From Sporisorium sorghi (taxonomy: Eukaryota; Basidiomycota; Ustilaginomycetes; Ustilaginales; Ustilaginaceae), in assembly GCA_023212695.1 (NCBI GenBank), contig JALCCG010000467.1:1-10469 (forward strand): a stretch of DNA of 10,469 nt, read 5' to 3'. Below are positions 3-10,405 of the stretch, piece by piece. The notes beneath the pieces were generated by a model. The model was not told the origin of the DNA. It made no database searches and was given only the letters and a program-made list of their open reading frames with translations. Both the position numbers and the translations under genes were made by a program. Numbering within the stretch: position 1 is the first letter of the stretch; each line of letters opens with the position of its first letter.

Positions 3-596
3 AAAGTATGGGGCGCCAACCTCGACCCACCCGAGTCCGCCAAGAATGTCATCAAGCCCTGGCACGAGCGTCTATCCGCTGATCCTTCTACACAGTCCAA
101 CGTCGACGATCAGCTCGCCATCACCGTCCCCTTTACATGCCCCGTACGCTTGAAATCCATCCTCATCAACACGGGCACAGGCGACTTTGCTCCAACACGC
201 TGCCGTGCCTTTGTCAACCGTCCTGATGGCATTGATTTTGACGAGGTTGAAGTGGCCGCATCCGACGGTCACCCTGCCGACCTCTCCCCCCTCGCCAGTG
301 CTGCCACGCTCGGCAGTGTAGGCAGCGGCAAGGCACAGGCCGATTTTGCTTTGTTGCGAGGACAGCAAGGCGTCGTCGAGTATCCCGTCAGTGTCGCTCG
401 CTTCTCCCACACCAACAGCATCACCATCGTCCTCTCCCATTCCAACGCCACCACTCTCTCGCGCTTCTTCTACCTCGGCTTCCGAGGCACTGCCCTCGTT
501 CTCAAGAGCGAGCCTGGCGAGAGGCTCAACATTGGTGCTGCCAACTCTGCCGACCGCCCTGTCGACGGTCTGCGTGAAAAGCGCGGTGCTAGCCAG
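3..596 (+). other. PITH domain, C-terminal portion
   Basis: The translated start contains NVIKPWHERL, then DDQLAITVPF and VRLKSILI, then RAFVNRPDGIDFDEVE, then VEYPVSVARFSHTNSITIVL, and finally FFYLGFRGTA. This is the order and spacing of conserved blocks in PITH (DUF1000) domains such as the C-terminal half of human TXNL1 and stand-alone fungal PITH proteins. In TXNL1 the domain binds the 26S proteasome. The first strands lie left of the window. PITH proteins normally end shortly after the segment seen here at ANSADRPVDGLREKRGASQ (to 596), so a stop would be expected near 600; none is present in frame. No thioredoxin domain is visible, but one could lie upstream. Confidence 0.85.
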
Positions 597-3209
597 GGTC
601 TGGCAGGAGGCAGCAACTCGAGATGTCGAACTTCTTCTCCGCAATACATCGTTGGCGACCCAGCAGCTGCACGACGCATAGCTCGGATCGCAGAGCAAGC
701 CAACACCACACCCAGAAGATCGCCGAGGCACAATCGCACCTATGTGCCCGCTACTTCGACCACCACCGATGCAACCGAGTCTCCAACAGCTACACCGACG
801 CGCAAACACAAAGCAAGGCCGTCTCAGCCTGGTGATGCTGGTCAGGACGACACCGAGACTACGCCGCGTGCCAGTCGCAGTCCTGCAAAGACGCGTCGTA
901 CTCCGCACACGGCTCCTCCTGCTCGCGATCGTCCTTCTGTCGCCGGCACTTCAGCTTCAGCAGGCGCCCAGCCGTCCCGCCGAGGATCGCAGACAGAAGC
1001 TCGCGCTGCAGCTTCAAGCTCGAGTGATCCAAATCGACGCCGATCCCTCTCGCAGCCTCCTCCCAACGATGTCTTGCTGCGTCAATTGCACTCTAGCTCC
1101 TTGACGCCTTCCGCCAAGTATGCAGCCGTGCAGCGTCAGGCGCGGACACCCTCGCAAACAGCGGCTCTCGCCACCACGCCAGGAAGGCGCATTCTCGGCA
1201 CACCGCATCGCACCGTTCCCGGCTCGGCCTCGGCTTCGTCCAATCCGTTCGCTGGATCTTCATCATCCCAACCGGCACAGCAGCAAGGCATGCAGACGCC
1301 CGCCACGGACAAACGACGCAAACGCAACGATGCACTCCTCGCCAGTGCACAGCGCACACGAGAGAGGAGGTCCGCCTCTCGCAAAAGCCTGCTCTGGGGC
1401 GGCGTCGGCGGATGGGCAGGTGGACGAGAAGAGTCGCCCATGGACCTTCTGCGTCGCCTCGCGCGTGCCCCTGGCTTTGTGGCCCCGCCTACGCCCTCTC
1501 AAGACTCGATCGCCATGCCACCGCCTGCTGCATCTCGTCTGGGCCGATCCAGCACCGCAAGCTCCACCGCCGCCGCCGACGCCTCCAACTCGCGTGCACG
1601 AGCCAGAGACAGCGCCGCCAGCACCTCGGCACGCTCTTCGCTCAGTCGCGCCACCATGCTCGTCCCCGGCGAATCCGTACCTGGCGACTTGACACGCGAC
1701 AGCAATGTCAGCGACTCGCTCGATGTCGACGAATCTCTCGTCTCTACCTCCGGTACGCCAGATGGCCGCTCTCGATCGCGTCTCTCGGATATGGGCATCC
1801 CGCGTAGGGCGTCCGGTGTGGGTCTCGTTCGAGGCGGCATCTTTGCTGCCATGGCCGATCGACCAAAGACGTCGCGCGTCTCGACAGGGTCGCGCGTCTC
1901 GTTTGCTGCAGACCAGCCCTCGCCTGCTTCGATGCGCTTCGACGACATGTCCGGCCGAAGGGAGGACGAGCTGGAACGCAGTCTCCAGCAGTACGGTGGG
2001 GCCGAGAGCTTCGTCTCTGCTTCAGGCATTGGTCTAGCCACGGCCAAAGCGATCCGTAGGCTCGACGATTTGACGCGACAGAGCTTTTTCAGTGAAGACG
2101 GCGAATTGCAGTACGACGGCGACGAGGAAGAGGAGGAGCAAGCGGACGAGTCGGCGCTCGAAGCAAGGAGGAGCAAGAGTTTCGGTCGATCTCAGTCAGA
2201 ACCGCTCGAAGGTGAAGCCGACGGTTCTGTGCTGTTCCTTGGCCAAGACGACGACGATGTGCCGCAAATGGAGAGTGAGGAGGAAGAGCAAGTGTCGGAC
2301 AGCCTTGCCGTCGATGCACCGGACGACGACTCGGACGGTCTAGCACGACGACTTGCCGCCGACGACTCGGCTTCGCGCGACTTGCTCGATGCATCTCGTG
2401 GCTCCATCACAGCTGGCGACGGTGACGGCGCCGCCGATGACAGCCGAGCCTCGAGGGTGTCGTTTGCAGAGCAGGACAAAGTGTCGTTCCAAGTCGACGA
2501 TGCCTTGTCCTCGGACGACGGCGGTGTCGAATATGGCCTTTCGGTGCGCGAGGAGGACGAGGCCGATGACGACTCGGACGCAGATCAGCGCGATGCCTCC
2601 GCACGGCGCCTCGACCTGCTTGACCCGAAAGACCTCAACGCGCTGCTCAAACGGCGCATCGTCAAGAAGCGCAAGGCGCGCATCTCGCCACACACGGGCG
2701 AGCCCGTGCCGCCGCTGCCCTCTTCCGTCATGCGCGACATCTTCTCCTCCTTTCTCACCCCCTCCTCTGGCGGCTCGTCCACCTCGCTCCTCTCGTCATC
2801 ATCGACCGGCTCCGCGTCCAAAAGAGCCAAGCTCGACAGCACCGTGCTCGACGAACTCGATGCAGCGTGCCATGACTTTTTCGCCGACTTTGCATCCAAC
2901 CTGCTCTCTCAGGCCAAGACACGCACCTCGCGCCGCGCCGCCGAGGCGGGGATCACCATCACCGAGGCCGACGCGGTGGCCGTGCTCAAGCGCCAGGGCA
3001 GGGTCACGCAGCGCCACGACGCCAGCAGCCTCGCGCACAAGCTGCTGCCCAGGGAACTGACGGACCAGATGGAGCTCAGTCGGTGGGCTAAAATGGGGAC
3101 GGTGCAGACGACGCTGAGTGGCATGTTGATGGGTGGAGGGAAGAGGGCGGCTGAGGCTAATGCTACGGCGGGGAGTAGTTTGGATGACGACGAGGAGTCG
3201 GTCGAGTGA
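3..3209 (+). CDS. PITH domain joined in frame to a CENP-T-like kinetochore protein (5' partial)
   Basis: The frame is open from the window edge to a TGA at 3207-3209 (1068 residues visible). Its first ~195 residues are a PITH domain and its last ~125 a CENP-T-type histone fold. CENP-T binds centromeric DNA with CENP-W and recruits Ndc80 and Mis12 to the outer kinetochore. Between them lies a disordered region. The first part (about 680-1500) is basic and rich in S/T-P sites, several matching the CDK consensus [ST]-P-x-[KR] (TPTR, SPAK, TPGR). Next comes WGGVGGWAGG and a possible Ndc80-binding helix, MDLLRRLARAPGFV (1440-1481). The later part (2100-2600) is acidic and holds RVSF twice and KVSF once. 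The frame has no ATG before 1290, so the true start lies left of the window if this is one gene. If it is two genes, the CENP-T start is unresolved: I found no convincing intron between 540 and 840, and GC3 in this frame dips near 610-830. Domain calls are firm; the gene model is not. Confidence 0.75.
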   Translation, partial: KVWGANLDPPESAKNVIKPWHERLSADPSTQSNVDDQLAITVPFTCPVRLKSILINTGTGDFAPTRCRAFVNRPDGIDFDEVEVAASDGHPADLSPLASAATLGSVGSGKAQADFALLRGQQGVVEYPVSVARFSHTNSITIVLSHSNATTLSRFFYLGFRGTALVLKSEPGERLNIGAANSADRPVDGLREKRGASQGLAGGSNSRCRTSSPQYIVGDPAAARRIARIAEQANTTPRRSPRHNRTYVPATSTTTDATESPTATPTRKHKARPSQPGDAGQDDTETTPRASRSPAKTRRTPHTAPPARDRPSVAGTSASAGAQPSRRGSQTEARAAASSSSDPNRRRSLSQPPPNDVLLRQLHSSSLTPSAKYAAVQRQARTPSQTAALATTPGRRILGTPHRTVPGSASASSNPFAGSSSSQPAQQQGMQTPATDKRRKRNDALLASAQRTRERRSASRKSLLWGGVGGWAGGREESPMDLLRRLARAPGFVAPPTPSQDSIAMPPPAASRLGRSSTASSTAAADASNSRARARDSAASTSARSSLSRATMLVPGESVPGDLTRDSNVSDSLDVDESLVSTSGTPDGRSRSRLSDMGIPRRASGVGLVRGGIFAAMADRPKTSRVSTGSRVSFAADQPSPASMRFDDMSGRREDELERSLQQYGGAESFVSASGIGLATAKAIRRLDDLTRQSFFSEDGELQYDGDEEEEEQADESALEARRSKSFGRSQSEPLEGEADGSVLFLGQDDDDVPQMESEEEEQVSDSLAVDAPDDDSDGLARRLAADDSASRDLLDASRGSITAGDGDGAADDSRASRVSFAEQDKVSFQVDDALSSDDGGVEYGLSVREEDEADDDSDADQRDASARRLDLLDPKDLNALLKRRIVKKRKARISPHTGEPVPPLPSSVMRDIFSSFLTPSSGGSSTSLLSSSSTGSASKRAKLDSTVLDELDAACHDFFADFASNLLSQAKTRTSRRAAEAGITITEADAVAVLKRQGRVTQRHDASSLAHKLLPRELTDQMELSRWAKMGTVQTTLSGMLMGGGKRAAEANATAGSSLDDDEESVE
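2715..3090 (+). other. CENP-T-type histone fold with Ser-rich loop insertion
   Basis: The first helix is LPSSVMRDIFSSFL. After an insertion, the second helix is LDELDAACHDFFADFASNLL, followed by the short ITITEADAVAVLKRQGRVT and the closing LAHKLLPREL. The pattern of a Cys/Tyr-Phe long helix, then D-x-x-x-(L/V)-(L/M)-(K/R)-R-Q-G-x-V-T, then LP-x-E, is the hallmark of the CENP-T C-terminus, which pairs with CENP-W. The loop between the first two helices is short in vertebrate CENP-T. Here it holds about 28 mostly Ser/Gly/Thr residues ending in the basic KRAK (2757-2840). The protein stops about 40 residues after the fold. Confidence 0.78.
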
Positions 3210-4129
3210 GACGGCACAATGTACGTGTGGGGACGCTGGAACAATGCAGAGCTTTTGATACCCTGGTCTACGTTATCGATTGTCCGGTTGATTTGAGGCT
3301 GATGGTGTGTGAAACGCGTGGAGTGACAACGTCGACACTCGTCGTTTTTTCGAAGCTGTGCTCATGCTCGGTGGCGCTGCTTGAAGCGCGTGCTCAGCCT
3401 CTTGACAAAGCAACGCCCTGAGTGTGTTCAAGTCTCACGCCACCCTAGGCACCGCAAGTTGTGGCGCAAAGTATACGAGATGTCGGTCGGATCGCGCGAG
3501 TCGCGGTCTGATTTGGGTTCACACGACCCCACCCGCCACAGCGTGTACCCACCAAAGCCCTCACTTCATCTATTGTCCCTCCTCGGCGTTCAAAGCTTGT
3601 CTGTGTGTGCTCGCAGATGCTTTCACGCAACTGTTCCTTGTGTCGTCCCCACATCGCGCTGCCCACTTGCTGCGCTTTTACCAAGCTCACTTTGTGCAAA
3701 TGCTGTATGACCTCCTCTTCTTTCTGCTTCGCTGCGCTCGATTGGGCTCCCTTCCGGCGGCGAGTCCGGAAGCACTCGAAAGTGAAGAAACATGCTCTCT
3801 TTCCGCAATCTATACTTCTGCCCTCTATCAACATCGCTACCGTTCGTGCTCAGGCTTAAGAAAGAGATTCATCAACAATGAGACCCGAGGTGGGAGGCTC
3901 TCGAAAGGCGCGTGGGGCTTGTCGGGATCGTGGGGGGGGAAAAGGTGTTGTTTCGCGGCACGAGCTGACCGGGCCTCATACGCTTAACAACCTCACGACG
4001 TTGTGTGTCAACCTCTGAAGATAAAGCCGGGTCCCCACCAGCAGCCAAAAGCTGTGCTGTCGACCCACCCACTCTCTGTACGTTCCTCTTCATCCCTCTG
4101 CGTACCTGGGCGCAGCGGTGGAACACGCA
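3210..4129. other. Intergenic region between the CENP-T-like gene and the secreted precursor
   Basis: About 920 bases without a supportable gene. Open frames here (for example 3424-3987) have no recognisable protein sequence and no codon bias. No tRNA is present: the only T-arm-like stretch, near 3515, lacks the conserved A of the T-loop and a matching cloverleaf. The region should hold the 3' end of the upstream transcript and the upstream regulatory DNA of the precursor gene. A single MluI-box hexamer (ACGCGT, 3314-3319) is present but isolated. Confidence 0.6.
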
Positions 4130-4135
4130 TATATA
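4130..4135 (+). promoter_or_regulatory. TATA box of the secreted precursor gene
   Basis: TATATA lies in GCATATATACC, 124 bases upstream of the ATG at 4259. It is followed at about 30 bases by a CT-rich stretch (about 4155-4180) that would suit transcription starts, giving a leader of roughly 90-100 bases. A clean TATA box is typical of strongly regulated rather than housekeeping fungal genes; that reading is inference. Confidence 0.5.
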
Positions 4136-4258: not shown

Positions 4259-4324
4259 ATGATTTTTCGCAAGTCGATGCTGCTGGTGTCCGTCAGCGTG
4301 CCCCTCCTGCTCTGCGTTAGTGCT
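4259..4324 (+). other. Signal peptide of the precursor
   Basis: The first 22 residues have a basic N-region (MIFRK), a hydrophobic core (MLLVSVSVPLLLCV) and a small-residue cleavage site, VSA before SPIARD. The first Kex2 site, VDKR at residues 36-39, follows soon after and would remove a short pro-segment. The layout fits ER entry and Golgi processing. Confidence 0.85.
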
Positions 4325-7300
4325 AGCCCTATCGCTCGCGATGGAGCCGCTGTCGAGTATCCCGTGGACAAGCGCGGCTTCGTCGATCCGCCCTCGCCAC
4401 ACTATCCCAGGGCCAAACAGCACCATCCTGGCCTGACCAAGCGCGATGCAGTCGTCATCGATCCTGACGGAGGCCTGGTCAAGCCTGGTTTCTCCGGCAA
4501 CGATGCGCCTCACGCCAACTTCCCCAAGCTCAAGCCGCACCATCCTCCCAGCCCGGTCAAGCGCGAACTCGTCATTTACACCGGACCTGACGGATCTCGT
4601 CGGGTCATAGGGCACGTCAAAGGCCCCAATGAACCCGGATTCACGACGCCGCGCCACCCCCCGAGCGGCGACGACGGTGGCTTCAGCGACGAGCATTCTC
4701 TCGAGCGTCGTCGCGCTAACGGACCGCATGGCAAGCTGGAGCGCCGCGACGGCGGCAGCTTCGACGAGCATGCTCTCTCTGCTGCTGCTTACACGAAAGA
4801 GGTGAGCAAGCAGGATCGCTTCCCGCTCAATCACCACTTCCACGGCGACAACAACTGCGACCATCCCGCGCCCGGCGCTCCGCCTTGTGGCGACTACGGC
4901 GACTCCAGGATCGAGAAGCGCGAGCTGCAGGTGGTGGAGGGCGAGGAGCCTGCCGCCCGTCCGCAGATCGAACGGCGCGAAGTGATGGACGACGAGCACT
5001 CTGGTCACGCTCTTTGGATCGAAGAGCGTTCAGTCAATGCCGAGCCCGAGGGCGCTCGGTCTATTCACGACCACGCTTGGCTGCACCGCGCTGCTGAGAA
5101 GCGCACTTGGCCGCAGCAGCCCGTCGACGACTACGATGGCATCCACGGCGACGATGACAGCGGTCTGCAGAAGCGAGACAGCGACGCCAGGTCCGATCTC
5201 TTGCCTGACGGCGGTCCGCCCTCCGGGAGCTCCGACGACGGTGGTGGAAGCAACCCCCGCTCCTGCAGCGACGCTGGCTGCCAACCTCACAGTCGGGGCG
5301 CCAAAGTCATCGGTCGCGTTGCTGAGAGCAAGGTCGAACGCCGTGATGTCGCTGGCGACGATCACGCTAGCGACCTGGTCAAGCGCTCGCCCGACAAGTA
5401 CGACGGCAACCGTGGGGGGCCCGGCTTTTACTGCGATCATTCTCGTCATCCGTCAGGCATCTGCGCCCCTGGTGGTGGTCATGGCGGCGGAGCTGATAGT
5501 GGCGTTTCTGAAAGCAAGATCGAACGTCGCGACGCTGGCCACTACCCGTTCGTCAACGACGATGAGCTCGCCGACAGTCTTCCCAGCCTTTCCAAGCGCT
5601 CGTTGGATCACGAAGAGCACGTCGAGCGTCGCGAGCGCATCATCGACATCGACAGCTTTGACGACGACTTTGGCGGCCGTGGTCCTGCAAAGCGCGCTCT
5701 TGAACGTCGCGCTGACGACTCGAGTGTCGTCATGGGCACCGACGGCAACAACGGCGACGATGGTGGTCAACAGGGTGCAGCAGGAAGTCGGGTCGCACGA
5801 GATGCGAACACTCAGTACGTCAAGAGGTCCATCGGATCCGAGCCTGGAGCTCGTCAAGGTTTCGTCGGTGCCAAGCGTGACATCGAGCGTCGCGCTGGTG
5901 GTAAGCCTAAGCCTTGGGCACGAAACCCAGATGATCCTTATGATGGTTCGCCCGGCAACGATGTCGATCCTGATCCGCCTCACCACGGACTCGAACGTCG
6001 TGACCTTGGCCATATCCCCAGCGTCAACGATGAAAAGTTCGCCGACTTGCGTTCGATCGCTGCCAAGCGCTCTCTTGGTCAAGACCAGCATGTCGAACGT
6101 CGCGACGGTCCCTACCTTGAGGATGTCGAGAAGCGTCAGGTCAAGCGTGACTTACTCAGTGCCAGCGAAGCTAACAACTACGACGGCGCTTTCGGCAACA
6201 AAGATCATCAAGACGGCCGCGAAAGGGGTCATGGTGCTCTCGAACGTCGCACTGATGCTTCTGGACCCAAGCTCTCCAAGCGAGATTCATTTTCATCTCC
6301 TCCCGGCCCGCCTATACACCATGCCAGCGACTTTCCAGGCATTGGCGACGAGCAGGTGGCTAAGCGTGACGTGCGCGAGTACCCTGGCCATGTCAACAGC
6401 GACAACGTTCACGTCGTCGGTGTCAAGCGCCATGTCAAGGCTGACGAAGGCGGCGACGCTGTCGAAGCTCACGATCGCCCAGGGGTATTCGTCAAGCGAT
6501 CTCGGTCTCCTGCCTCTGATATCATGGCTGAAAAGTGGGAGAGCGTTGGAGGGCCGCTGAAAAAACGCTCTCCTCGGGAAGAGTACCACCACGACTACTT
6601 TGATCCTCTTCCCGACGATCCCAGGCCGCCCGGCTATCCGGTGACGTTCGAAAAGCGCTCCTTTGCGGATCTAGACCGTCGTGATACCGAGCGCCGGTGG
6701 CCTTATGATACCGATCCGGAACTCCCTAGCCACACCTGGCCGGACGATGCCACGCACCCAGGCCACGTCAACAAGTACGGCGTTCGCTTCACTGGCGCCA
6801 AGCGTTCTCTACCTCTCGGATCCGTTCACGCCGTCGCTCCGATCGAGCGCGATCTTGCGTCTGTCCAGAAGCGCTCGTCTCCGGATGAGGAAGTTCCTGG
6901 TGATCCTCATCCTCCCGCATCTGCTGCCGTCGCTGCGCAGCAGGAGCATCCGGCGAGACTCGAGAAACGTACCGACGACACGGGTGACGGGACCATGACT
7001 CAAAGGCGAATTTATCCCATGTACATCGAGTCCTCTCTGAACATTCAACCCAAGGGAGGTGTGAATGGTTCTGGCCGCTACGGACACTGTCTTTGCCATA
7101 AAGGCGACGGCGATGATAACTGGAACAACGGTAAACCCTCGAACCCAGTGACATGCCTGGCCAAGTTCGTCGCCTCGGTTGGAAACGACGGCACGTGTAA
7201 GCGCACCAAAGATGACACCGTGTCATGCGTCGAGAAGAAGGGAGGCAAGCCCGTTCTGACGGATGGTGAAAGCACGTGGTGGCAGGAGCGGCTCTGCACG

Positions 7301-8392
7301 AGATGCCATAATGCTGGCGGTCTTTCAATGTACGGCTTCGCTTGCCCCGCGGCGTTCCAGCCCCACATCAAGGGCGCTCCACCTTCCGGTCATCAAAGGC
7401 GATCTCTGCCCCCAAGCAGTCCTTCCTCGTCCTCCGAGGAGCGTGGTGGCCGATCGAACCACGTTCACTTTAAGCGGGGCGTCTCCGGTCCTGCGCTGCG
7501 TCTCGAGGAGCTGGTCGAAGAGCCTCCGAGCTACGTTCCACGCCACAAGCAGGCTTTGCACCGGGTCGAGGCCAAGCCGGCAGCACTCGAGAAGCGTACT
7601 TTCGAAGACTTATACCCCACCACCATCCAGGTACATTCTTCTCTGAAGGTTCAGCCCAAGGGTGTCAACGGTGCGGGCTTGTACGGAATCTGTAAATGCG
7701 CGGCGCAGGACGAAGATTATGATTGGAAGGATAGGGAGCACGGCGGCGGTCCTCAAAACCCAAACACGTGCCTGGGCAAGTTTTACCGCCAAGCCAGCCA
7801 GCACGCCGATTGTGTCCAAGAAAGCGTTGGCCTCATGTCCTGTGTCGAACGCAATCTTCAAGCGCCGCTGACGGACGGTCAAGAGGATTGGTGGCAGCTT
7901 GCTTTCTGCCGCAGATGCCTCGATGCTGGCGGCAAGAGCGAGCAGGGCTTGAGCTGTCCTGCTGGGTACAAGACCAAGTCGGGCCTTGGCGAGCCAGTCG
8001 ACAAGCGACCTTCCAAGCGTTCGACGCTCGAGAAGCGTCTTCACATCCAGGAGGACCACAAGAACAAGCGAGGGTCTACCATCGACATCATTACCACTCT
8101 GAGCGGACAGCCTAGCGGAGCTCCCAATGGAGGTCCGCGCCGGTTTGGACATTGCACCTGCCTGAGCGGTCCAAGGGACTTCGATTGGAATGGTGGTAAG
8201 CCGACGGACGCAAACTCGTGCGTAGGCAAGTTTGTCACCGAAGCCCAAAAATACGGCAAGTGCTCGATCAACGGTGAGGAGATTGACTGCGTCGAAAACG
8301 GAGGCTCGTCTCAGATGTCGGACGGTGACAACAGGTGGTGGGAGCAGCATCTCTCCAAGAAGTGCACTGATGCCGGTGGATCCTCTGCTTAG
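4259..8392 (+). CDS. Secreted Kex2-processed multi-peptide precursor with three C-terminal cysteine-rich modules
   Basis: I do not recognise a named family. The 1377-residue product starts at the ATG with A at -3, just before a classical signal peptide. The frame is also open further upstream, but that would place translation above the TATA box. About 45 dibasic sites (roughly 29 KR, 16 RR) punctuate the chain, often as (L/I/V)-E-(K/R)-R followed by D, E or S. Kexin in the late Golgi would cut after them. Residues ~40-917 form ~38 short, acidic, His/Pro/Gly-rich peptides derived from diverged repeats. The only cysteines there are three pairs, at residues 200/210, 336/341 and 392/402. Residues 918-1377 hold three ~110-125 residue cysteine-rich modules separated by Kex2 linkers. 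The design recalls fungal Kex2-processed precursors such as smut repellent Rep1 and dikaritin RiPP precursors. However, the peptides are not hydrophobic like Rep1, the repeats are too diverged for a typical RiPP, and no UstYa or tyrosinase gene is nearby. A cell-wall, signalling or effector role is possible but unproven. Confidence 0.88.
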   Translation: MIFRKSMLLVSVSVPLLLCVSASPIARDGAAVEYPVDKRGFVDPPSPHYPRAKQHHPGLTKRDAVVIDPDGGLVKPGFSGNDAPHANFPKLKPHHPPSPVKRELVIYTGPDGSRRVIGHVKGPNEPGFTTPRHPPSGDDGGFSDEHSLERRRANGPHGKLERRDGGSFDEHALSAAAYTKEVSKQDRFPLNHHFHGDNNCDHPAPGAPPCGDYGDSRIEKRELQVVEGEEPAARPQIERREVMDDEHSGHALWIEERSVNAEPEGARSIHDHAWLHRAAEKRTWPQQPVDDYDGIHGDDDSGLQKRDSDARSDLLPDGGPPSGSSDDGGGSNPRSCSDAGCQPHSRGAKVIGRVAESKVERRDVAGDDHASDLVKRSPDKYDGNRGGPGFYCDHSRHPSGICAPGGGHGGGADSGVSESKIERRDAGHYPFVNDDELADSLPSLSKRSLDHEEHVERRERIIDIDSFDDDFGGRGPAKRALERRADDSSVVMGTDGNNGDDGGQQGAAGSRVARDANTQYVKRSIGSEPGARQGFVGAKRDIERRAGGKPKPWARNPDDPYDGSPGNDVDPDPPHHGLERRDLGHIPSVNDEKFADLRSIAAKRSLGQDQHVERRDGPYLEDVEKRQVKRDLLSASEANNYDGAFGNKDHQDGRERGHGALERRTDASGPKLSKRDSFSSPPGPPIHHASDFPGIGDEQVAKRDVREYPGHVNSDNVHVVGVKRHVKADEGGDAVEAHDRPGVFVKRSRSPASDIMAEKWESVGGPLKKRSPREEYHHDYFDPLPDDPRPPGYPVTFEKRSFADLDRRDTERRWPYDTDPELPSHTWPDDATHPGHVNKYGVRFTGAKRSLPLGSVHAVAPIERDLASVQKRSSPDEEVPGDPHPPASAAVAAQQEHPARLEKRTDDTGDGTMTQRRIYPMYIESSLNIQPKGGVNGSGRYGHCLCHKGDGDDNWNNGKPSNPVTCLAKFVASVGNDGTCKRTKDDTVSCVEKKGGKPVLTDGESTWWQERLCTRCHNAGGLSMYGFACPAAFQPHIKGAPPSGHQRRSLPPSSPSSSSEERGGRSNHVHFKRGVSGPALRLEELVEEPPSYVPRHKQALHRVEAKPAALEKRTFEDLYPTTIQVHSSLKVQPKGVNGAGLYGICKCAAQDEDYDWKDREHGGGPQNPNTCLGKFYRQASQHADCVQESVGLMSCVERNLQAPLTDGQEDWWQLAFCRRCLDAGGKSEQGLSCPAGYKTKSGLGEPVDKRPSKRSTLEKRLHIQEDHKNKRGSTIDIITTLSGQPSGAPNGGPRRFGHCTCLSGPRDFDWNGGKPTDANSCVGKFVTEAQKYGKCSINGEEIDCVENGGSSQMSDGDNRWWEQHLSKKCTDAGGSSA
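5522..5632 (+). repeat. 37-residue coding repeat, copy 1
   Basis: Residues 422-458 of the precursor run from ERRDAGHYPFVND through KRSLDHEEHVERR. They align without gaps with residues 579-615, with 21 of 37 residues identical by eye. Each copy starts, is split and ends at a Kex2 site, so the repeat encodes two peptides of about 20 and 9 residues. Divergence is mainly in the hydrophobic positions, with the dibasic sites conserved. Confidence 0.8.
5993..6103 (+). repeat. 37-residue coding repeat, copy 2
   Basis: This copy runs from ERRDLGHIPSVND through KRSLGQDQHVERR, 471 bases (157 codons) after copy 1. Both copies are preceded by a YDGxxG motif and followed at some distance by an ALERR(A/T)D segment. 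This suggests that a longer block was duplicated and then eroded. Confidence 0.8.
6383..6430 (+). repeat. PGHVN...G-x-KR coding repeat, copy 1
   Basis: PGHVNSDNVHVVGVKR at residues 709-724 matches PGHVNKYGVRFTGAKR at 834-849 in the pattern PGHVN-x3-V-x3-G-x-KR. The motif ends exactly on a Kex2 site, so it forms the C-terminal part of a released peptide. Confidence 0.7.
6758..6805 (+). repeat. PGHVN...G-x-KR coding repeat, copy 2
   Basis: Second copy of the 16-residue motif, PGHVNKYGVRFTGAKR, 375 bases after the first and again ending on a Kex2 site. A weaker relative, GARQGFVGAKR, occurs near residue 540. Confidence 0.7.
7010..7372 (+). repeat. C-terminal cysteine-rich module 1 (8 Cys)
   Basis: Residues 918-1038 follow the Kex2-type site TQRR. 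Cysteine spacing is C-1-C-19-C-13-C-9-C-22-C-2-C-12-C. Shared features of the three modules are G-x-C-x-C, an acidic stretch ending in a Trp, C-(L/V)-(A/G)-K-F, C-V-E, (T/S)-D-G, a Trp-Trp pair, C-x2-C in modules 1 and 2, and (D/N)-A-G-G. Eight paired cysteines in a secreted module of this size suggest four disulfides. I cannot assign it to a named domain family. Confidence 0.8.
7598..7978 (+). repeat. C-terminal cysteine-rich module 2 (8 Cys)
   Basis: Residues 1114-1240 begin directly after the Kex2 site LEKR. Spacing is C-1-C-23-C-13-C-9-C-21-C-2-C-12-C, nearly identical to module 1, with a four-residue insertion around the GGG segment. The linker from module 1 (about 75 residues) holds QRR, FKR and LEKR sites, so the modules should separate on processing. 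Confidence 0.8.
8072..8389 (+). repeat. C-terminal cysteine-rich module 3 (6 Cys, truncated)
   Basis: Residues 1272-1377 follow NKRG after a run of four KR sites (DKR, SKR, EKR, NKR). Spacing is C-1-C-19-C-13-C-8-C-24-C. The sixth cysteine of the other modules is Ser here (LSKKC against LCTRC and FCRRC). The eighth lies beyond the TAG stop that ends the protein after AGGSSA. Both missing cysteines would be partners if they form one disulfide, so the module may still fold with three bonds. Confidence 0.78.
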
Positions 8393-9085: not shown

Positions 9086-9132
9086 TTTTTTTTTTTTTTT
9101 TTTTTTTTTTTTTCTCTCTCTCTTTTTTTTTT
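9086..9132 (+). repeat. Poly(T) tracts with CT microsatellite
   Basis: A run of 28 T (9086-9113), a short CTCTCTCTC stretch, then 10 T (9123-9132). Poly(dA:dT) tracts exclude nucleosomes and are common in fungal promoters; this one ends about 130 bases before the Mam33 ATG. Exact lengths of such runs are error-prone in assemblies. Confidence 0.9.
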
Positions 9133-9263: not shown

Positions 9264-10070
9264 ATGATCGCACGCAATCTCTCAAGGACACTCCTCCGGG
9301 CAGCACCTCGCGCCACCAACCCGGTAGTAGCTGCTGTGGCACGTGCCTCGGTTCGACCTGCCGCAGTGCCCGCTTTCCGGTGCTTCTCCGCCACACCGCT
9401 TGCGCGCGGACAGGGCGAGTACGACGCCGAGCTGAGCGCGCGTCTGGCGCAGGAGCTCTCGTACGAGCAGGAGAACTCGAACCTCTTCATCGGTGATTCG
9501 CCGACCAACGAGCCCGGCTTTGTCACCGAGTTCAAACAAATGGGCGTATGGAAGCTGCTCGACACGCCTGGCCAGGACGAGGTGTCGCTCGAACGCCAAT
9601 TCGGCAATGAGCACATCAAAGTGCTCTTCTCCGTCGGCGACATCGACACGAGCGGCACCCTTCCCGAAGACGGCGAGGACGGATCGCCCCAGGGCCCGCC
9701 GGAACAGCCCGAGAACCCGCCCTTCCCCGTGCGCATCTCGGCGACCGTCACCAAACCCTCCGGCGGCGCCATCATGATGGACGCCTTCGTTCAAGATGGC
9801 GAGTTCAATATCGATAACATTGCGTACTACAAGGAGGCGGAGATGGCGACGAGGATGGACGCTGACGCCGACTTCAAGCGCCGCGGCTTTTATCTGGGCC
9901 CGCAGTTCGATACGCTCGATGAGACGGTGCAGACCCAGTGGCACCAGTTCTGGGTCGAGCGCGGCGTCGATGCTAACATGGCGCTGTTCATTCCCAACTA
10001 TGCAGAGTACAAGGAGCAGCGAGAGTATTGCAGCTGGCTCGCCAACATGCGCGATTTTATCGATGCTTGA
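9264..10070 (+). CDS. MAM33: Mitochondrial acidic matrix protein Mam33 (p32/gC1qR family)
   Basis: The 268-residue protein starts at the ATG with A at -3; a TTG seven codons earlier is not needed. Residues 1-41 are a mitochondrial presequence: Arg-rich, without acids, ending in RCF before SATPLARG. This fits an R-3 type site for the matrix processing peptidase followed by Icp55. The mature part shows the family's layout: an acidic N-terminal helix, LxxEFKQMGVWKL-like and FSVGDID strands, an acidic Pro/Gly/Glu loop (about residues 130-155), and central strands PFPVRISATVTK and MMDAFVQDGEF. The conserved C-terminal helices are YLGPQFDTLDETVQTQWHQF, ERGVDANMALFIPNYAEYKE and YCSWLANMRDFI. p32 proteins form doughnut-shaped, highly acidic trimers in the mitochondrial matrix and support mitochondrial translation and respiration. 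The length is normal and no intron is visible. The gene stands alone, with no functional link to its neighbours here. Confidence 0.95.
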   Translation: MIARNLSRTLLRAAPRATNPVVAAVARASVRPAAVPAFRCFSATPLARGQGEYDAELSARLAQELSYEQENSNLFIGDSPTNEPGFVTEFKQMGVWKLLDTPGQDEVSLERQFGNEHIKVLFSVGDIDTSGTLPEDGEDGSPQGPPEQPENPPFPVRISATVTKPSGGAIMMDAFVQDGEFNIDNIAYYKEAEMATRMDADADFKRRGFYLGPQFDTLDETVQTQWHQFWVERGVDANMALFIPNYAEYKEQREYCSWLANMRDFIDA

Positions 10071-10346: not shown

Positions 10347-10354
10347 AAAAAAAG

Positions 10355-10405
<51 letters not shown>
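10347..10405 (+). repeat. Poly(A) homopolymer tract
   Basis: Seven A, one G, then 51 uninterrupted A (10355-10405). There are no target-site duplications or retroelement sequence next to it in the window, so a retrotransposon tail is not supported. The true length may differ from the assembly. Confidence 0.9.

Follow-up and report, generated by a model that had tools for sequence, protein, structure and literature searches.

The window analysed here, a stretch of 10,469 bases from the smut fungus Sporisorium sorghi, is the entire contig C409 (JALCCG010000467.1) of the assembly that we searched (23.17 Mb in 469 contigs). Positions 4259-8392 hold one gene that would encode a secreted precursor of 1377 residues, with a long acidic pro-region divided by sites of the kexin (Kex2) type and three cysteine-rich modules at the C-terminal end. 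An earlier note, made from the letters alone, had described a single gene with a signal peptide at this place, and its coordinates proved exact, with the ATG at 4259, the stop codon at 8390-8392 and no internal stops. The guanine plus cytosine content of the frame is uneven by codon position (0.67/0.49/0.65). The signal peptide was seen by eye as a basic N-terminus followed by a hydrophobic core, with a probable cleavage point behind VSA, at residue 22 (the product counts given below assume a cut after residue 24). The parts of the gene are as follows.

4129..4135, + strand: TATA-like ATATATA, 124-130 bases 5' of the start codon, a possible core promoter (by eye)
4259..8392, + strand: precursor gene, intronless open frame, 1377 residues (sequence read)
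4259..4324, + strand: putative signal peptide, residues 1-22, likely cut between VSA and SP (by eye; the start of the S. graminicola protein described below is similar in style)
4325..7009, + strand: acidic pro-region rich in Asp, His, Pro and Gly with Kex2-type sites, residues 23-917 (sequence, site count and composition)
7010..7369, + strand: cysteine module 1, residues 918-1037, 8 Cys (sequence comparison)
7616..7966, + strand: cysteine module 2, residues 1120-1236, 8 Cys (sequence comparison)
8072..8389, + strand: cysteine module 3, residues 1272-1377, 6 Cys (sequence comparison)

Dibasic doublets are far more frequent in the precursor than its composition would give. We found 49 KR or RR (30 KR and 19 RR, overlapping count) against 15.6 +/- 3.6, with a maximum of 28, in 2000 shuffled versions of the same composition. 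Forty-six of them are outside the modules, which agrees well with the earlier figure of about 45 sites, and full cutting at these 46 would release 46 products, three carrying the modules and 43 being non-module peptides with a median length of 21 residues. At least 8 residues are found in 36 of the 43, and several have just 2-4. That the peptides are mostly acidic was also correct in the earlier note, but its count of about 38 has to be lowered to 35, the others being neutral (7) or basic (1). Leu, Ile or Val occupies P4 at 27 of the 46 sites (13.0% background, p 4e-13) and Glu occupies P3 at 19 (6.8% background, p 5e-11), p-values that are too small because internal duplication makes the sites non-independent. 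The pattern (L/I/V)E(K/R)R occurs 16 times. Leu or other aliphatic residues are described as the P4 preference of kexin and Asp at P3 as unfavourable, while for Glu at P3 that account, as far as it covers the position, offers no reason (PMC8528282). The genome contains the kexin P domain in one place, C145, within a kexin-like frame where a subtilisin-type catalytic domain, a membrane segment and an acidic tail could be recognized by eye. Since the sites often have the P4 that kexin prefers and a kexin gene is present in the genome, cutting of the pro-region can be predicted. The genome also gave seven matches to S10 peptidases; two of these are fragments of the same gene.

Alternatively, the protein could remain mostly uncut and act intact, its role being that of a large acidic protein of the surface or matrix that binds through the three modules at its C-terminus. 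Cutting here is a prediction, and there is a precedent in Rsp3 of Ustilago maydis, an effector with repeats and a cysteine-rich region. It decorates the hyphae and is predicted to be unprocessed in the description given of it (PMC5923269). The excess of doublets, the P4 preference and the site positions partly kept in a homologue (see below) argue against this, and no GPI (glycosylphosphatidylinositol)-anchor signal or membrane segment was noticed by eye at the C-terminus. We consider a protein that works whole quite unlikely.

The peptides between the sites are not copies of each other. In a pairwise test of our own design, different from the published pipelines (33 peptides of at least 8 residues, cut in a slightly different way from the products counted above; 2000 shuffles), 2 of 528 pairs were alike at p<=0.001, with 0.5 expected, and the largest family had two members. 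As a positive control we used a precursor of the same genome that resembles Hum3 of U. maydis (C337:10626-10853), in which Kex2-bounded peptides, 9 of 11 of them similar, are followed by a hydrophobin domain. Here 34 of 55 pairs were alike, with a family of 9 (the 5' end of this gene is missing from the locus and 1000 shuffles were run instead of 2000). At the DNA level eight direct-repeat families were detected in the precursor gene, mostly pairs or short site-bearing units, some of them in three copies. One 115-base duplication covers two predicted peptides plus their sites, and hints at how the peptide array grows. One of the three-copy families, D6, has a unit before each module.

5520..5634, + strand: 115-base internal duplication, copy 1, GH.P.VND...KRSL...HVERR (direct-repeat search, 72% identical)
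5991..6105, + strand: 115-base internal duplication, copy 2 (direct-repeat search, 72% identical)
6945..6970, + strand: LEKR-bearing unit of D6, 26 bases, before module 1 (three-copy direct repeat)
7572-7597, + strand: LEKR-bearing unit of D6, before module 2 (three-copy direct repeat)
8013-8038, + strand: LEKR-bearing unit of D6, before module 3 (three-copy direct repeat)

A database search with the module half of the protein gave, within the length limits searched, one homologue among 6309 candidates (E 4.8e-73). This is EX895_003664, a hypothetical protein of 847 residues from Sporisorium graminicola. Like the precursor of the window it has a signal peptide, a cut-up acidic region and three modules in the same order, together with counterparts of two peptides that we call A and B. 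It differs in its length (847 against 1377 residues) and in that all three modules, the last included, have eight cysteines. Its KR/RR doublets are 16, with 15 outside the modules compared with the 46 of the window, and at these 15 sites P4 is Leu, Ile or Val in 6 and P3 is Glu in 5. None of its 55 peptide pairs was alike in the pairwise test. An alignment made with masked sites still placed 5 of the 13 sites in the S. graminicola peptide region on sites of the window, against 0.59 on average and at most 5 over 5000 random draws, although the masked letters may attract each other slightly; in the unmasked alignment 9 of 13 fell on window sites. The composition of the pro-region is also similar in the window and in S. 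graminicola (Asp 11.2 and 10.0%, His 5.6 and 4.8%, Cys 0.7 and 0.5%, respectively). In contrast, a large share of the peptide region resists alignment between the species, and that of S. graminicola has about half the length. What has been kept is therefore the sites, the composition and a few peptides, and not the whole peptide set.

Six of the predicted peptides with 9 or more residues had a match in the S. graminicola region whose score was reached in at most one of 200 shuffles, the strongest matches being those of A and B. These two are listed together with three peptides that carry a pair of cysteines.

4445..4558, + strand: conserved peptide A, residues 63-100, core KPGF.GN.AP...FPK.K.HHPP (score 97 against S. 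graminicola, 0/200 shuffles)
6698..6799, + strand: conserved peptide B, residues 814-847, ending PGHVNKYGVRFTGA before KR (score 88 against S. graminicola, 0/200 shuffles)
4748..4915, + strand: peptide with cysteine pair, residues 164-219 (product prediction)
5177..5338, + strand: peptide with cysteine pair, residues 307-360 (product prediction)
5387..5524, + strand: peptide with cysteine pair, residues 377-422 (product prediction)

The short peptides might then be the main products, a cocktail of about forty signals or compounds directed against host or microbes, similar to an animal prohormone and with the modules as accessories. The number of predicted products, the six peptides with matches in S. 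graminicola, the three with cysteine pairs and the conserved site positions would all fit such a cocktail. The earlier note had suggested a multi-component system that could act at the cell wall or host surface. However, a region that is largely unalignable and halved in the other species, with 15 sites in place of 46, speaks against a system of forty components, and so do the products of 2-4 residues. We regard the cocktail as rather unlikely.

Peptide A resembles the N-terminus of the actin family (VVID..GG..K.GF.G.DAP...FP). Its best match in the family was to a gene of the same genome, which we take to be ARP1-like, with a score of 82 against a shuffle maximum of 39 (n=300); three other actin-family genes gave 57, 50 and 56 (shuffle maxima 40, 50 and 46). 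The genome-wide E for the likeness was 0.0143. The S. graminicola counterpart of peptide A is less similar, with scores of 39, 39, 29 and 42 against the family and shuffle maxima of 46, 37, 43 and 43, and the actin model of Pfam did not appear among the matches listed for the precursor. The likeness is likely due to chance, with mimicry as a possible alternative.

The three cysteine-rich modules of the earlier note are real and, furthermore, they are homologous copies of each other: modules 2 and 3 are 44 and 38% identical to module 1, with 30 invariant columns. The six copies of the two species have identities of 34-51%, 21 invariant columns and conserved cysteines. Module 3 of the window departs from the others in that C6 is replaced by Ser and C8 is absent, the protein ending before it and at an earlier point than the last S. 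graminicola module does. These two cysteines are missing together and only in this module, as expected if C6 and C8 pair, so that module 3 could still be a folded domain. The same truncation, and the fact that no module copy beyond these three was found in the genome, could be read as signs of a decaying gene or even of a fortuitous frame. This is very improbable given 1377 open codons, the uneven codon positions, a homologue with the same layout and six diverged copies with their cysteines conserved. Actually, the frame, its homologue and the precursor-like layout are real.

In agreement with the earlier description of the family as unrecognised, the precursor had no Pfam match above the cut-off and no relative by sequence in the PDB, the S. 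graminicola hypothetical protein being the single homologue found. KP6 is processed by Kex2, and the modules could be antagonists of a comparable kind, killer-toxin-like or effector-like, released from a Kex2 precursor as small disulfide-bonded alpha/beta domains similar to the KP6 subunits. The order of secondary structure in the modules is compatible with a small toxin fold of the KP6-like or KP4-like type. However, no KP6, KP4, ginkbilobin-2 or effector structure was among the structure matches listed (which is not proof of absence), matches of the strength obtained are common, and neither Pfam nor PDB sequences gave support, so that antagonism appears unlikely to us. Hydrophobins carry CC doublets, and these are absent from the modules. 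The hydrophobin family PF01185 did not match any of the six module copies, and finds two places elsewhere in the genome. Eight conserved cysteines are described for hydrophobins (PMC2253510).

Among the known systems that we compared, the closest layout is that of Hum3, a secreted protein of U. maydis with putative Kex2 sites between its peptides and a terminal cysteine-rich domain, whose function is listed as unknown (PMC4617103). Both proteins have Kex2-separated peptides and then a cysteine-rich end. They differ in the contents, since Hum3 has 17 imperfect amphipathic repeats plus a hydrophobin and the precursor has non-repeat, mostly acidic peptides plus three non-hydrophobin modules. The earlier note had set the protein apart from Rep1, alpha-factor and dikaritin precursors, rightly in that the peptides are not near-identical cores, but it left out Hum3. 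Rep1 of U. maydis is described as a secreted protein from which Kex2 releases ten small peptides and a piece of 228 residues (PMC4617103). Its peptides are similar amphipathic repeats of 34-55 residues that form surface fibrils, in contrast to the acidic short products of the window with their largest family of two. Ustiloxin-type (dikaritin) precursors have highly repeated core sequences according to PMC7329392, and the window gene was rejected as one of them on its 2 of 528 similar pairs. A search for UstYa (DUF3328) had no match in the genome, but gave none in the control genomes either, and the contig is 10.5 kb long. Ece1 of Candida albicans is another Kex2 precursor, described with seven KR sites and several peptides, one of them known to be active (PMC5784256). 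With 271 residues and a cytolytic peptide it is unlike the precursor described here, which is 1377 residues long and combines peptides that are mostly acidic with three cysteine modules.

Kex2-processed repeat proteins (KEPs), among which are alpha-factor and the ustiloxin-type precursors, are described by a signal peptide and many fragments bounded by KR or RR, and under both definitions the sites have to enclose three or more repeats that are similar (PMC6339444, PMC7329392). The window gene has 46 predicted products, where at least four KR/RR fragments are asked for, and a secretion signal seen by eye. It lacks, by our own pairwise test, the three or more similar short repeats (8-100 residues) of Umemura. 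The Le Marquer pipeline, as described, takes three similar fragments of any size that make up 15% of the protein and cuts at all KR/RR, including those inside the modules (PMC6339444), and the three repeating modules might be countable as repeats under it. In the broad sense of a Kex2 multi-product precursor, a kexin in the genome and kexin-type sites in the protein, the gene would belong to the class. A survey of 250 fungi reports from 3 to 129 repeats per KEP precursor, the second largest having 38 (PMC6339444). Some 46 products would be near the top of this range, in line with the earlier note (some 40 products, at the large end for fungal precursors), in a comparison that is loose because products are not repeats.

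Taken together, we find it reasonably probable, from sequence and by comparison with Hum3, that the gene encodes a precursor of Hum3-like layout, a Kex2-cut acidic pro-region followed by three new cysteine modules, with activity likely to reside in the modules and in a few conserved peptides. The signal peptide would direct the protein to the secretory pathway, where kexin would cut after KR or RR, outside the modules and at 46 sites at most. Kex1-type carboxypeptidases may then trim the basic ends (S10 peptidases are present in the genome, Kex1 itself not being singled out). The modules, likely the main products, would be released as compact alpha/beta proteins, 106-135 residues long, with four disulfides (three in module 3), their folding shielding the few dibasic sites that they contain. 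Most of the acidic pro-region would be a fast-evolving spacer in which charge and cut sites are kept and the sequence is not. Among its short peptides the conserved A and B are the strongest candidates for activity. Secretion, cutting, disulfide pairing and the identity of the active products are all inferred here, as is the place of action, for which the hyphal surface or the medium is our guess by analogy with Rep1 and Rsp3.

Several observations weigh against this precursor with separately released modules. In EX895_003664 there is no site between the first two modules, which would leave together in one product (448-715), so that the release of modules one by one is not conserved. Doublets are found within the modules at residues 981, 1218 and 1294 in the window and 831 in S. 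graminicola, and kexin must spare them. At three of the 46 sites P3 is Asp. In addition, the conservation rests on two sequences, because only one homologue was found, and that of the modules and that of the peptides were gauged on different footings. A bolder interpretation would make the protein a fungal counterpart of the animal multi-hormone precursors, with a new disulfide-rich domain in triplicate next to dozens of differing peptides; it can be held only tentatively.

If the predicted cutting takes place, the peptides secreted by smut fungi are more varied than counts based on repeats suggest. The two KEP genome surveys (PMC6339444, PMC7329392) select for repeats as described, and a precursor of dozens of unlike peptides could therefore be missed by them. 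The modules would form a cysteine-rich family of an undescribed kind, with six copies in two species so far, and together with the two conserved peptides they are concrete molecules to make and examine. In Coprinopsis six precursor genes of this sort were deleted with no visible phenotype reported (PMC9769878), so that a clear phenotype should not be presumed here.

Upstream of the precursor gene, a stop-free frame at 3-3209 (+ strand) begins with a PITH domain (8.5e-30) and finishes with a CENP-T histone-fold domain (2.1e-8), and is either a fusion gene or two genes joined through a missed intron. The neighbour on the other side is a MAM33 gene (9264-10067), flanked by long T and A runs at 9086-9132 and 10347-10405.
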